From NCBI GenBank assembly GCA_016185365.1, contig JACPNP010000018.1:1-64000 (forward strand): a DNA stretch of 64,000 nucleotides, written 5' to 3'. The translations under genes and the position numbers were made by a program. The stretch comes from Terriglobales bacterium. Lineage in GTDB: Bacteria > Acidobacteriota > Terriglobia > Terriglobales > Acidobacteriaceae. Numbering within the stretch: position 1 is the first letter of the stretch; each line of letters begins with the position of its first letter. Positions 1 through 42,801 of this stretch are shown here, one piece after another. Below the pieces are notes generated by a model. It had not been told where the DNA came from. It saw only the letters and a program-made list of their open reading frames with translations, and ran no database searches.

Positions 1-22
1 AGAGGGGGCTGGGTTTCGGGCC

Positions 23-207
23 GTCCCTTGCGGGACTCGCGTTTGAATGGGCCGCGTACCCAGCGCTGAAGCGCTGGGTACACGTGTGGATCAAGATCTG
101 CCAATCTGGAAGCGGAAAGACCTCGCCCCGCAAGGGGCGATATCCCATTAGCCCAGCGCTTCAGCGCTGGGTAAACGGTGGTGCGTGATCCAGTCCCGTA
201 GGGACGA
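23..207. repeat. Composite REP-like hairpin array, copy 1
   Basis: Successive perfect hairpins: GTCCC-TTGC-GGGAC (23-36), TACCCAGCGCTGAAGCGCTGGGTA (57-80), TCGCCCCGCAAGGGGCGA (123-140), GCCCAGCGCTTCAGCGCTGGGT (~151-172), GTCCCGTAGGGAC (~193-205). Confidence 0.85.
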
Positions 208-299
208 TTGATGGCCTGCTCAAAGAATCGGGACAAAAGCAAAACGCCCAGCCATCCGGCTGGGCGAATCACTGAAAGCCGGCAGCCGGCAGCTGCTTC

Positions 300-34729: not shown

Positions 34730-35854
34730 ATGGGTTCCGCGACACTCGACCTTCCGGCCTTGTTCTCCGGGCTTTTACCCGCCGCGATATTGCGCGTCTG
34801 GAGCAATCTGCCGGAATGGCTCTCGCCGATGTTGATCTTTGGCGTCTGCGTGGGCGTGGGACTGTTGCTGGACAGCGTGGGGCTGGCAGTGTTGCGCCGC
34901 CTGGCCAAGCGCACCACGTGGCCGGGGGATGACGTGATCGTGGACTCGCTGCGCCGCTTCCCCCTGGTCTGGATGACTCTGCTCGGAGGCCGCCTGGCGC
35001 TGGAGCGCTCTGACCTTCCACCGCAATTCGAAAAGATCTCGACCGTGTGGCTTCCGGTGCTGGGCATTTTTGCCGTGACCATCTTTGTCGCCCGCGCCGC
35101 CGGGGGATTGGTCGGACTTTATTCCGGCAAGGCCGAGGGATTGCTGCCGGCCACCAGCATCTTCCGCAACCTGGCCCGGATCGTGATCTACCTGCTGGGT
35201 TTCACCATGATGCTGCAGGCGATGGGCATCGCAGTGACACCACTGCTCACGGCGTTCGGCGTCGGTGGTCTGGCTGTGGCACTGGCGTTGCAGGACACGT
35301 TCGGCAACCTGTTCGCAGGACTGCACATCCTGGCCAGCCGCCAAGTGCAGCCCGGCGATTACATCAAGCTCTCCAGCGGCGAAGAGGGGTATGTGGAGGA
35401 CATCCGCTGGCGCAACACCACCATCCGCGCGCTGCAGAACAACATGTTCATCATCCCCAATTCAAAGTTGGCCGGGAGCATCATCACTAATTTCGACCAG
35501 CCAGACCCGCAGCTGCTGTTCGGCGTCGAGCTGGGCGTGGCGTATGACAGCGACCTGGAAAAAGTGGAGCGCGTGACTGTGGAAGTGGCGCGCGCAGTGT
35601 TGCAGTCTGTGCCCGGCGGAGTGAAAGACTTTGAGCCCAACGTCCGATACCACACCTTCGGGCCTTCCAGCATCAACTTCACCGTCACGCTGCGGGCCCA
35701 TCTTTTTGCGGACCAGTTCCGCCTCAAGCATGAGTTCGTGAAGCGGTTGCAGAAGCGGTATCAGGCGGAGGGCATCGAGATCCCGCTGCCCAGCCGCACG
35801 GTGATCGTGAAACCGGAGTCCACGGCGGAGATCAAGCCGGCGCGGGAAGAATAG
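34730..35854 (+). CDS. Mechanosensitive ion channel, MscS family
   Basis: AFGVGGLAVALALQDTFGNLFAGLHILASRQVQPGDYIKL. Confidence 0.93.
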   Translation: MGSATLDLPALFSGLLPAAILRVWSNLPEWLSPMLIFGVCVGVGLLLDSVGLAVLRRLAKRTTWPGDDVIVDSLRRFPLVWMTLLGGRLALERSDLPPQFEKISTVWLPVLGIFAVTIFVARAAGGLVGLYSGKAEGLLPATSIFRNLARIVIYLLGFTMMLQAMGIAVTPLLTAFGVGGLAVALALQDTFGNLFAGLHILASRQVQPGDYIKLSSGEEGYVEDIRWRNTTIRALQNNMFIIPNSKLAGSIITNFDQPDPQLLFGVELGVAYDSDLEKVERVTVEVARAVLQSVPGGVKDFEPNVRYHTFGPSSINFTVTLRAHLFADQFRLKHEFVKRLQKRYQAEGIEIPLPSRTVIVKPESTAEIKPAREE

Positions 35855-35860
35855 TCAGTC

Positions 35861-36114
35861 GTCCCTACGGGACTTGATCGCTTCGTCCAGCCTTCCCAGC
35901 GCTGGGCTAATGGGACATCGCCCCTGGCGGGGCGAATCTCCTCGATAGATCCTTACGTTCTCGGAAGAATTGATATCGCCCCGCCTCTAGGTCCCCGTTC
36001 CGGAAGACAGTCCTCTCATCGGCCACATCCGCCGTCCCGCAGGGACGGCATTTCATTAGCCCAGCGCTTCAGCGCTGGGTACGCGGCCCATCACATCCCA
36101 GTCCCGCAAGGGAC
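35861..36114. repeat. Composite REP-like hairpin array, copy 2 (inverted relative to copy 1)
   Basis: GTCCCTACGGGAC (35861-35873), CCCAGCGCTGGG (35895-35906), TCGCCCCTGGCGGGGCGA, CCGTCCCGCAGGGACGG (36032-36048), GCCCAGCGCTTCAGCGCTGGGTACGCGGCCCAT, GTCCCGCAAGGGAC. Confidence 0.85.
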
Positions 36115-36125
36115 GAATGAATCCT

Positions 36126-38849: not shown

Positions 38850-39026
38850 AGGCGTGGAAAGGATTGATTTTAGCAGGTGAGGGTTTATTCACCGCGGAGA
38901 CGCGGAGGCACGGAGAAAAACCAAAGCTAAGTGATAACCGCGGATCAGATCGGATAAGGACGGATCATTCTTTTTCAAAAAATCTGTGAGTATCCGTGAA
39001 ATCCGTGGCTGATGCTTGGCCTTACC

Positions 39027-39617
39027 TCAGTCCGCATCTTCACGCTTCGCTGGTTCGATAGCCTCTTCTTCCAGCACACTCAACACCTCTTCCTCCACGT
39101 CCCACTTCTTCAGGATATTGAATATCGTTCCGGTACGGAAGCCGGCGCGGGCCAGCATGCGGAAGATGCGCGCGGTGTCTTTCTGGGACTGCTTGCGGCC
39201 GGCGGCATCGTCGCGGCGAGCCTTGGCGGGCGGCTTCACCCGCTTGCGCTTTAGGTATTCGCGGGCAAGTTTTTCCTCGTCGGTATCGGCGTAGGCCGCG
39301 CCCACGGACTTTTCGATCACATCGCCGTGCACGCCTTTGACCTTGAGATCGGTGACCACGCGCTGGCGGCCCAGCTTCTGACCTTCTTTGCGGAAGGTGG
39401 CGTACATCTCGGCGAAGCGCGAATCATTCAGGTATTTATGGTCTTTCAGCCGCTGGACGACGCTCTCGATGGCGGCATCACGGTCCCCGGCGACGTTCTT
39501 TTGCCGCAGCAGGCGCTTCATCTCCGCGACCGAGCGCATCCTTCGGCCCAGCGCCTCGACGGCGTACTCGTACAACGACTCCGGGTCATACGTCTTTTTG
39601 GAACGGGGGAACGCCAT
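39027..39617 (-). CDS. recX: Regulatory protein RecX
   Basis: YAVEALGRRMRSVAEMKRLLRQKN...VVQRLKDHKYLNDSRFAEMYATFR. Confidence 0.9.
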   Translation of the reverse strand: MAFPRSKKTYDPESLYEYAVEALGRRMRSVAEMKRLLRQKNVAGDRDAAIESVVQRLKDHKYLNDSRFAEMYATFRKEGQKLGRQRVVTDLKVKGVHGDVIEKSVGAAYADTDEEKLAREYLKRKRVKPPAKARRDDAAGRKQSQKDTARIFRMLARAGFRTGTIFNILKKWDVEEEVLSVLEEEAIEPAKREDAD

Positions 39618-39745
39618 GGCTGTTTCAAGATACCGTGTTTCCGCAATTTGCGGGCAGGGTGGGCGATGCCACCGCACCCGAATATTCCCTGCACAAAACC
39701 CGCGTTATTGATGCCCGTTACAAGAGTCAGGATGAGGCAACATCA

Positions 39746-40422
39746 GCCCGAAGGGCGTTTGAAAATAGCCCGGCACAAAGTGCCGGGGAAAGGAGGCTTG
39801 ATCATCTGAGTCCCGCAGGGACGGCTGAATCAATCTTTCTGTATTTCCATTCCGTGACGTTTCAGGAACAGTTCCCATTCCGCGGAAAAATCGCGCCGCT
39901 GGTGGTGGGCCTGCTGATTTTGGATATACCGGATCGTAGCCGGTAGTTGCGCTATCCCGATGGAGAACGCGCCGTAAGTCTCCTGCCAGGCAAAGAGCCT
40001 TCGTTCACTTTGGTCATTCATCCACTTGGACGACCCGGCCTTGATCAGTTGAACTGCCTTCGCCAAGGGCATCGTGGCCGGCAATGAAAGAAGTGTATGG
40101 GCGTGATCGGCCACGCCACCGACCGCCAACGCCTTGAAGCCGTTCTTGCGGGCAATCCCTCCCATGAAGGCCCAAAGGCGCGGTTCCATATGTGACGGGA
40201 TCAAAGGCAGACGCCCTTTGGTCGAAAATACGACGTGCACCAGCAGGCAAACGTATGACATACCGGCGAGCCTAGATCAATCTGCAGGTTGATCCGCAAG
40301 AAAGTGATTCTTGTTCCGGAATCAGAACAGGGCTGGTTCAGTCGTCCCGACGGGACTCCATGATCGTGATCGGTCCGGACCCGGCACTTCCGTGCCGGGC
40401 TATTGTCAGTCGCCCTGCGGGC
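39746..40422. mobile_element. IS200/RAYT-like unit flanked by inverted triple-hairpin arrays
   Basis: Left: GCCCGAAGGGC, CCCGGCACAAAGTGCCGGG, GTCCCGCAGGGAC. Right: GTCCCGACGGGAC, CCCGGCACTTCCGTGCCGGG, GCCCTGCGGGC, i.e. the reverse order. Confidence 0.75.
39830..40261 (-). CDS. IS200-like / REP-associated Y1 transposase
   Basis: HVVFSTKGRLPLI, GGVADHAHTLLSLP (HUH-type motif), FAWQETYGAFSI, YIQNQQAHHQRRDFSAEWELFLKRHGM. Confidence 0.88.
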   Translation of the reverse strand: MSYVCLLVHVVFSTKGRLPLIPSHMEPRLWAFMGGIARKNGFKALAVGGVADHAHTLLSLPATMPLAKAVQLIKAGSSKWMNDQSERRLFAWQETYGAFSIGIAQLPATIRYIQNQQAHHQRRDFSAEWELFLKRHGMEIQKD

Positions 40423-40483
40423 TCATCGAACCGAAACAACTTGCGTCTTGGGAATTTTGCTGATTCCGAATGGATGAGAGGAA

Positions 40484-40990
40484 TCAAGGCTGCTGCGCTT
40501 CCTCGGTATCGATGTTGGGGAATGACTTCATGACCAATTCGCGTTCACGCGACGACGATTTACCTTTTGCATTCACGCGGTGCTCGGTCAGCGTGCCGCG
40601 GATAAGGATGAACCCTTCGTCGCCTGATTTCACTTTCTCGTCGCGCTCGACCTTGCCTTTGAATTCATACCAAATGCCGTGGATGGTCTTGGTGTCGAAC
40701 TTTAACTTGTTACCTTCCAGCGTGCCGGACTTGATGAAGTGATCGAGCACCTTGCCCTGGTCGCTCTCATCGCTGCCCAGACGGCTGACGAATCCGCTCA
40801 CCGTGAATGGCTTTGACCAGTCGGTATCGGGCCCGGGCGCGGGGTCGAGTGTGAGCTGGACGAACTCGCCTTCTTGCGTGAATGAATACATACCGGAGAT
40901 ATCGCCGGAGATTGCAGCCATGTTCTGCGCCGCTAATGCCGTGACCGCGAGAATGATGGGGATAAAGCGCACGAAGAAAGAAGGACGCAT
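40484..40990 (-). CDS. Hypothetical secreted protein
   Basis: Signal peptide-like N-terminus; coding-like ORF, no family recognised. Confidence 0.65.
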   Translation of the reverse strand: MRPSFFVRFIPIILAVTALAAQNMAAISGDISGMYSFTQEGEFVQLTLDPAPGPDTDWSKPFTVSGFVSRLGSDESDQGKVLDHFIKSGTLEGNKLKFDTKTIHGIWYEFKGKVERDEKVKSGDEGFILIRGTLTEHRVNAKGKSSSRERELVMKSFPNIDTEEAQQP

Positions 40991-41052
40991 AAGGTGGCCC
41001 GCCGACTTCAGAGTACATCGAAGATATAATCAGGGAAAGCGCGTCCTGCCTC

Positions 41053-42801
41053 ATGTCTCAGGCCCCCCTCCAGATCGAGCCTGATCCGGCCCCACCCAAG
41101 CCAAGACCCATGCTTGTGATAGATGCTCCGCCGGACTTTGAAGTCCACTGGACACCGTTCTGGCAGCAATTCCTGCGCAACCTGGCGGACCAGTTTTTCC
41201 TGCAAGAGCCAAAGGCGCCGAAGCTCTCGTCGTCGCCGGGGCGGTTCTGGGATGACGTCTTCGTCTTCCGGCCGTTCCCGTGGAAGAACATGGTGCAATC
41301 GGCCGTCTTCCACATCGCGGTCATCTCGTTCTTCGTGAACACCTGGCAGTTCTGGGACCGGAAAAGCGCGGTCACGCTGGACTCGCCGTTCTACCGCTCG
41401 TCGATCACGTATTACAAAGTGGACAGCTTCCTGCCGGAGGTAAAAACTTCGGCGCCCCCGGCGCGACGTGCGCGCCGGAGCAAAGGCGATCCGGAGCTGG
41501 CGCCGCAGCGCATACAGTCACTGCCTCCGGTGGCGGACAACAGCGTGCAGACCATCGTGAATCCGCTGCATCCGGAGGTGCTGCGCCATGATGTGCCCCT
41601 GCCGAACCTGATCGTGAGCGCGCCGCAGGTGGACGTACGCCTTGCGGTTCCCCTGGACCTTCCGCGCGAGTTAAAGCGATTGGAGCCGCGGATCCAGAAA
41701 CAGATGCCGCTCGCGCGAGTGGATCTGCCGCAGACGGAGGTGGTCGCGCCGCCGCCGAAGGAGCGTCCGCGGCTACTGGCGCGGATGGAAGTCCCGATCC
41801 CGCAGCTGGAGCCGGTGGATGCACCCAAGCTGCCCACGCCGCGCGAAGCGCTTCCCGGCAAGCTCGACCTGCCGGAGCCGCAGGTGATCCCGCCACCGCC
41901 GGCCACGCCTTCCTCGATGGGTGGGACCGGACAACGCGTTGCCGGAGAGTTGCTTGCGCTCAATGTGCGCCCTGCCGCGCCGGAGCCGGAGATCAAGGTC
42001 CCGGACGGATCACGCAGCGGAGTGTTTGAAGCCTCGCCGGAAGGCCGCAAGGGCGCGGCGGGAACACCGGAAGTAAAAGCGGAGGGAGTATCGGGCGCGG
42101 GCATCGCCGCCGCGGGTGGTGGCGCCGGGCAAAATTCTCCGGGTGCAGGCGCCGGAGGCAGCGGCGCGGGAAGCAGCCGGTTGGCAGCGAGCACGCCGCC
42201 AGGAATCACGGTGACCGGAGGTCCCGCGACGCAACCGAGCGGCGCGGTCGTTGTCGGCCAGGCAAGGCCGCAGACGGGGCGGAGAAGCGAAACGCTGCGG
42301 CAAACTGCCGCATTGAATCGTCCACCGCCGTCGCCGTTCGACATCGCGCGCAGTGAATCGCGCCGCCTGCCTCCTCCCATCGAGGCGCCCAAACCCGCGG
42401 ATGCGGTGTTCGGCGACAAGCGCGTCTATCAGATGGCCATCAACCTTCCGAACCTGACTTCGGCCGGGGGAAGCTGGATCATCCGTTTCGCGGAGAAGGA
42501 CCCGGTGCAGCGCGCGGGAGAACTTTCCACGCCGGTGGCTTTGAGCAAGGTGGATCCGGGATATCCGCCGGACCTGGTCGAAGGCCGCATGGAGGGTGTG
42601 GTGGTGCTTTATGCGGTGATCCGTGCCGATGGCACGGTGACGGACATTCGCGTGATCCACGGCTCGCATCCCAAGCTGGATGAGAGCGCGATGCGCGCCT
42701 TCGCGCGCTGGCGGTTCCGTCCGGCGACCAAGAGCGGCCAACCGGTCGACCTCGAGGCGGTGGTGCAGATCCCGTTCCGCGCCCGGAAGTCAGGGTTCTA
42801 G
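41053..42801 (+). CDS. TonB-family C-terminal domain protein
   Basis: Pro-rich middle; C-term PGYPPDLVEGRMEGVVVLYAVIRADGTVTDIRVIHGSHPKLDESAMRAFARWRFRPA. Confidence 0.88.
   Translation: MSQAPLQIEPDPAPPKPRPMLVIDAPPDFEVHWTPFWQQFLRNLADQFFLQEPKAPKLSSSPGRFWDDVFVFRPFPWKNMVQSAVFHIAVISFFVNTWQFWDRKSAVTLDSPFYRSSITYYKVDSFLPEVKTSAPPARRARRSKGDPELAPQRIQSLPPVADNSVQTIVNPLHPEVLRHDVPLPNLIVSAPQVDVRLAVPLDLPRELKRLEPRIQKQMPLARVDLPQTEVVAPPPKERPRLLARMEVPIPQLEPVDAPKLPTPREALPGKLDLPEPQVIPPPPATPSSMGGTGQRVAGELLALNVRPAAPEPEIKVPDGSRSGVFEASPEGRKGAAGTPEVKAEGVSGAGIAAAGGGAGQNSPGAGAGGSGAGSSRLAASTPPGITVTGGPATQPSGAVVVGQARPQTGRRSETLRQTAALNRPPPSPFDIARSESRRLPPPIEAPKPADAVFGDKRVYQMAINLPNLTSAGGSWIIRFAEKDPVQRAGELSTPVALSKVDPGYPPDLVEGRMEGVVVLYAVIRADGTVTDIRVIHGSHPKLDESAMRAFARWRFRPATKSGQPVDLEAVVQIPFRARKSGF

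Follow-up and report, generated by a model that had tools for sequence, protein, structure and literature searches.

Insertion sequences of the IS200/IS605 family, such as IS608 and ISDra2, combine an HUH-Y1 transposase with a guide-plus-hairpin logic; they have one hairpin at each end, lack families of solo hairpins and occur as near-identical copies (99.4% identity; PMC6006769). In REPtrons, the transposase (RAYT or TnpAREP, class 2) lies between inverted hairpins that are dispersed in many copies and form enzyme-specific families. The REP of Stenotrophomonas maltophilia has a stem of 8 bp with a 3-nt loop (PMC8266576), and TnpAREP cleave REP DNA in single-stranded form at CT or CA dinucleotides, whose selection involves the GTAG motif (PMC8266576). 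TIRYTs, the tyrosine transposases of TIRtrons (PMC3733652), include an Acidobacterial group and have inverted flanks able to form repeat families; most have since been assigned to subclass 2.1 of class 2; these carry HTH tails and, in their flanks, the motif GGGGWSAS. TnpAY1 subclass 1.2, found mostly in Cyanobacteria and Bacteroidetes, was described as low-copy, divergent and free of REPs, the WQ motif being tied to REP-bearing subclasses (Quentin et al., 2018; PMC6006769). The Rfam family Acido-Lenti-1 (RF01687) is filed as an sRNA and was rated 'probably' an RNA (Weinberg et al., 2010; PMC2864571); a paper of June 2026 describes its function as little known and tentatively reads it as a regulator of proteases (PMC13298647). 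A literature search of main texts found no paper linking Acido-Lenti-1 to a transposase.

The locus described here lies in a 64-kb stretch of DNA, analysed as a whole (the window). We judge, with a probability of roughly three in four, that Acido-Lenti-1 is the single-stranded DNA recognition and mobility module of the previously REP-less TnpAY1 branch to which the enzyme of this locus is related, forming an independently organised three-hairpin REP system that has spread through several phyla.

The transposase and its flanking modules

The minus strand of the window encodes a Y1 (HUH) transposase of 143 residues (Table 1), with recX (39027-39677) on one side and a hypothetical gene (40484-40990) on the other; among the open reading frames of the window, no tnpB adjoins it. 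The AlphaFold2 model (pLDDT 92) gave ISDra2 and IS608 TnpA as its best PDB matches, and the Escherichia coli RAYT-REP complex (4er8) matches too. The protein carries the motifs H53-A-H55, W92-Q93 and Y112-x3-Q116-x2-H119-H120. Among its relatives both histidines and the tyrosine (H53, H55, Y112) are conserved, WQ is invariant and a C-terminal F-x2-E...L is maintained; the third residue of the DH[IV]H position, alanine in the window enzyme (DHAH), varies among A, V, I, C, L and M.

A sequence-only reading of the window had called the enzyme RAYT/IS200-like and held that a transposase devoid of the catalytic Tyr/HUH residues would speak against its proposal; the residues are in place. The affiliation with the IS200/IS605-related HUH-Y1 enzymes was borne out, but assignment to the strict RAYTs (class 2) was rejected. 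The NCBIfam RAYT model (REP_Tyr_transpos) gives 22.6 bits (cut-off 80) and the IS200 model 49.5 bits (cut-off 55), the active-site motif is Y-x3-Q-x2-HH and not Y-x3-NP, and the tree places the enzyme with class 1, apart from class-2 sequences (SH-aLRT 100). A TIRYT was also ruled out, most TIRYTs being class 2 with HTH tails, whereas the window protein, of 143 residues, belongs to class 1 and lacks an HTH tail. By its motifs (WQ, Y-x3-Q-x2-HH), the enzyme is predicted to be a TnpAY1 of the subclass 1.2 type, which it also resembles in length (∼148 residues for that subclass) and in having a small number of divergent copies in each genome.

A module of ∼91 nt brackets the gene in two inverted copies. 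On the strand directed at the gene, it comprises a first hairpin (h1, GCCCgaaGGGC), a short linker, TAG, the middle hairpin (h2, CCCGGCACaaaGTGCCGGG), ∼22 nt and a third hairpin (h3, GTCCCgcaGGGAC), followed by GGCTGA or GACTGA. All six hairpins that the sequence-only reading had reported in mirrored order around the transposase are present as written, as are the REP-like inverted flanks; the interval 39746-40422 is the extent from hairpin to hairpin, not that of the gene. On the gene-directed strand of the module, the TAG at the 5' foot of h2 is conserved; it had not featured in that reading. Longer inverted repeats connect the two sides (35 nt at 86% and 25 nt at 84% identity), and folding as single-stranded DNA gives the same three hairpins (z of -1.7 to -2.4). 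The arrangement resembles a REPtron, down to the -TAG foot on an h2 that matches the S. maltophilia REP in size (8-bp stem, 3-nt loop), but differs in its class-1 enzyme without Y-x3-NP, in having three hairpins per unit and in a foot whose first base is not a fixed G. Between alaS and recX (38866-39015) lies a separate, dispersed-looking stretch, 'caccgcggagacgcggag ... atccgtgaaatccgtggc'.

Table 1. Positions of the transposase gene, module elements and RF01687 matches in the window (R1, covariance model of the module)
Feature	Position	Strand	Evidence
TnpAY1 transposase gene	39830..40261	-	ORF; Pfam Y1_Tnp (PF01797) 76.2 bits; invariant residues; AlphaFold2 model
Left module (h1-TAG-h2-h3-GGCTGA), points at gene	39740..39830	+	R1 63.2 bits, E 2.7e-14
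h1 left, GCCCgaaGGGC, 4-bp stem, 3-nt loop; outer edge is the inferred element end	39746..39756	+	Sequence, ssDNA folding; paralog sister copies
TAG foot left, candidate guide trinucleotide	39766..39768	+	Sequence
h2 left, CCCGGCACaaaGTGCCGGG, 8-bp stem, 3-nt loop	39769..39787	+	Sequence, ssDNA folding
h3 left, GTCCCgcaGGGAC, 5-bp stem, then GGCT (candidate CT cleavage dinucleotide)	39810..39822	+	Sequence
Right module, inverted copy pointing at gene	40336..40428	-	R1 66.7 bits, E 2.8e-15
h3 right, GTCCCgacGGGAC	40344..40356	-	Sequence
h2 right, CCCGGCACttccGTGCCGGG (40380-40399), with TAG foot (CTA on + strand, 40400-40402)	40380..40402	-	Sequence
h1 right, GCCCtgcGGGC	40412..40422	-	Sequence
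RF01687 match, opposite strand of h2-TAG-h1, right module	40380..40423	+	38.6 bits (gathering 37)
Orphan module, stem CCCAGCGC	36031..36122	+	R1 72.2 bits
Orphan module, h2 shortened, inverted relative to 36031-36122	35853..35935	-	R1 50.9 bits
RF01687 match, opposite strand of h1-TAG-h2, orphan module	36033..36079	-	48.8 bits
Orphan module, stem CCCAGCGC	123..213	+	R1 68.7 bits
Partial orphan module (h2 and h3), inverted relative to 123-213	20..78	-	R1 46.8 bits

Distribution of module and enzyme

The host genome (G000) is a draft of 2.38 Mb in 70 contigs with a completeness of 89%; its nearest matches point to Acidobacteriota as its phylum. It contains 12 matches to the enzyme, nine of them at E<=1e-10; the paralogs are 42-52% identical to the window gene (42-48% for the full-length ones), and nearly all are enclosed in the same arrangement with different stem sequences, for example GGCCC / TAG CCCAGGCC / GCCCC and GCCC / TAG CCCCGCAC / GTCCGCT. 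A covariance search of the host genome and its relatives, as the sequence-only reading had proposed, used a model (R1) built from 33 modules, with the h1 stem left out since its length and register vary. In the host genome it detected 79 module copies (E<=1e-6), far more than the nine transposase genes, and across genomes the counts track the transposase. Copies are dispersed by the dozen, solo, paired or in tandem, with the general layout h1 (4-8 bp), a linker of ∼9 nt, TAG, h2 (8 bp, loop of 3-4 nt), ∼20 nt, h3 (5-6 bp) and GRCA or GRCT. The 8-bp stem of the window module, CCCGGCAC..GTGCCGGG, occurs 14 times in this genome versus none for the reversed pattern, which together with the model-based copies argues that the window hairpins are not due to chance. 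The module belonging to the window enzyme itself was matched at three other sites (C3:28180, C21:3862 and C69:21742, the last with TAA for TAG).

Two further arrays, at 20-213 and 35853-36122 of the window, each consist of two modules arranged the other way round (h3'-h2'-h1 h1-h2-h3), and their stem is CCCAGCGC. No gene found in the host genome carries this stem; it accompanies an enzyme in another genome (locus L041 of G022) that is 52-53% identical to that of the window. The suggestion in the sequence-only reading that the window transposase may mobilise these arrays finds no support here, their stem being a different one.

Searches of genome contigs found at least 581 relatives of the enzyme, of which 80 loci were kept for analysis, from Acidobacteriota, Planctomycetota, Verrucomicrobiota, Desulfobacterota, Calditrichota and others, a host range distinct from that published for subclass 1.2. 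A module lies nearby at 71 of the 80 loci, in contrast to the reported lack of REPs in that subclass, and takes the expected orientation upstream at 61, downstream at 58 and on both sides, inverted, at 50. The three-hairpin module, previously supposed to be uncommon, is therefore real and conserved but widespread. A count made independently of the covariance model found, in 46.6 kb of flanking sequence, 97 cases of TAG with a perfect 8-bp stem pointing towards the gene and 17 pointing away, versus none in dinucleotide shuffles. T occupies the first foot position in 130 of 146 sites at which only AG was required, and the base preceding TAG may be A, T, G or C, giving an NTAG foot where the hairpins of RAYTs have GT[AG]G.

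Stem sequences differ from one divergent enzyme to the next but are common to the left and right modules of each: the h2 arms of the two sides are identical at 45 of 57 loci, versus 2.4 by shuffling. The apical pair of h2 also predicts the second base of h3 (AC-GT in nine of nine cases; 26 of 30 others are not GT; p=3e-6), although these positions are not paired with each other, and this suggests that one protein may read both h2 and h3. In 132 modules from other genomes, a set fitted to the model, 397 cells were changed on both sides of a stem, a value reached by none of 500 shuffles. Pairing of h2 in the training alignment was pre-selected, the alignment having been picked by h2 complementarity; h3, for which no selection was made, pairs in 99% of cells.

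Some members depart from this layout. The full module was not seen at L048 (h1 and h3 missing) or at L215 and L255 (module or parts missing). TAG-footed hairpins also occur at one member from Bacteroidota (L254), and two plasmid members were examined; viral contigs yielded no homologues of the enzyme, and phages gave one weak match. A sub-type in which CAG (or AAG/GAG) replaces TAG, with h2 loops mostly of 3 nt (aac, gaa, gta), is seen at L207, L211, L216, L217, L233 (Granulicella mallensis) and L236. An unusually long array of more than 20 tandem modules or RF01687 matches surrounds one transposase in Desulfococcaceae bacterium HSG8 (L166, 870-3389).

Arrays equally abundant in genomes without the transposase would have spoken against the earlier proposal. 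Among 41 related genomes, modules were found in 13 of 14 with the enzyme versus 5 of 27 without it (Fisher p=5.7e-6; the genomes being related, co-occurrence p values overstate independence). One of these five (G008) retains a decayed fragment of the transposase gene. Another (G004, 99% complete) lacks any intact enzyme of this group yet has 51 modules; it was ruled out as a hidden carrier, its Y1 proteins being of other kinds, and its modules may be likened to REPs outliving a lost RAYT. Adjacent +/- module pairs without a gene (G004 C45:58444-58662, C17:56228-56414 and C19:110898-111089; G008 C22:53444-53649) would, by analogy, correspond to REPINs or MITEs derived from a gene-bearing element. 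A genome without the module (G016, C1:279423-279785) encodes a different, long Y1 protein, whose frame of 387 residues contains a high-scoring Y1_Tnp domain (153.8 bits).

Acido-Lenti-1 as part of the module

A scan of the window with Rfam matched RF01687 at two sites, both above the gathering score (Table 1). Reverse-complementing h1-TAG-h2 gives the consensus of the family, which consists of an 8-bp hairpin with a 4-nt loop, CUA, a linker and a 5-bp hairpin looped by UUC; the Rfam model lacks h3, and the entry states no link to a transposase. Among the RF01687 matches listed for the host genome, 21 of 21 fall in modules, on the opposite strand, and other phyla likewise show RF01687 beside the enzyme. 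Across 119 evenly drawn genomes of the phylum, 21 had both, six had the enzyme with no RF01687 match at E<=1e-5, seven had RF01687 alone and 85 had neither (odds ratio 42, Fisher p=2e-12); outside the family to which the window belongs, the corresponding counts were 16, 6, 3 and 81 (p=1.6e-11). This evidence from sequence comparison points to Acido-Lenti-1 as mobile DNA whose primary role is not that of a small RNA.

IS200-type mRNAs are regulated by hairpins, and the conserved helices of the module are strong. Along with the Rfam entry and the rating of 2010, these points favour the alternative in which the modules act as true small RNAs or as RNA-based regulators, and the transposase only travels with them or is regulated by them. 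We consider this unlikely, since modules beside the gene occur in either orientation, leaving no single strand as the RNA, the copies are dispersed as solo, paired and tandem units, and the stem sequence is specific to each transposase. Wobble pairs are also rare (28 of 1697 cells, versus the 397 changed on both sides), as expected for a DNA palindrome able to fold on either strand.

Element ends, proposed mobility and significance

Homology among the sister copies of one paralog in the host genome (contigs C33, C32 and C9) extends to ...CGCCCTTCGGGCT(C) and breaks off there, which places the end of the element at the outer edge of h1. Solo modules from different loci have in common the sequence from h1 to just past h3 and GRCW, so that the module itself seems to be a unit of spread. 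Three draft contigs stop inside this same paralog (the start of C32 and the ends of C33 and C9), the assembly having probably broken at a recently copied element. A clean, base-level empty site was not found among the relatives, which keep the hypothetical gene-tonB pair without the transposase and with recX not adjacent; in most relatives from the same family, the hypothetical gene and tonB (40484-42801) stay together, with neither recX nor the transposase beside them.

The near-identical sister copies on C32 and C33 suggest recent copying of a whole unit, and this, the class-1 grouping in the tree and the IS transposases as best fold matches would all suit a conventional IS200/IS605 insertion sequence of ∼0.7 kb whose ends bear extra hairpins by chance. 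This alternative is nevertheless quite unlikely. The C32/C33 pair is the exception to the rule that no near-identical multicopy element, often with tnpB in insertion sequences, was found; the other copies in the genome have diverged far below the identity published for IS copies, no tnpB is adjacent, modules greatly outnumber genes and the gene is bounded by an inverted pair of three-hairpin modules, where an insertion sequence has a single hairpin at each end. The locus is, in our estimation, likely to be a REPtron-like element whose enzyme is a class-1 TnpAY1 of the subclass 1.2 type.

The closest relatives of the window enzyme in the tree belong to other organisms and phyla, a planctomycete included, and not to its own paralogs, a pattern in favour of horizontal transfer. 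A domesticated enzyme that has lost mobility and serves a host task on hairpins (at replication forks, in supercoiling or at transcript ends) would agree with the mostly single-copy, divergent genes, as in class-2 RAYTs, and with the retention of modules without the enzyme in G004, but is highly improbable given the patchy presence of the enzyme (27 of the 119 phylum genomes), these distant affinities, the copy boundaries at h1 and the decayed fragment in G008.

For the REPtron-like element, a mechanism can be proposed in which the enzyme would bind h2 and read h1 and h3 as folded single-stranded DNA. The AG of TAG may serve as guide for a cut at a C|T or C|A dinucleotide. GRCA or GRCT frequently comes after h1 and h3, providing CA or CT there, and these dinucleotides, or the outer edge of h1, are candidate cut sites. 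The enzyme would form a 5'-phosphotyrosine bond and the strand would be re-joined elsewhere on single-stranded DNA, with gene-bearing elements presumably spreading rarely and solo modules more often.

If this reading is correct, RF01687, an orphan since 2010, would gain a function and a testable mechanism, and its matches should not be read as sRNA genes. The 'no REP' gap of TnpAY1 subclass 1.2 would be filled, and REP-like dispersal would not be confined to class-2 RAYTs. The enzyme-specific stems, together with the covariation between h2 and h3, would offer a natural dataset on how Y1 enzymes read hairpins.
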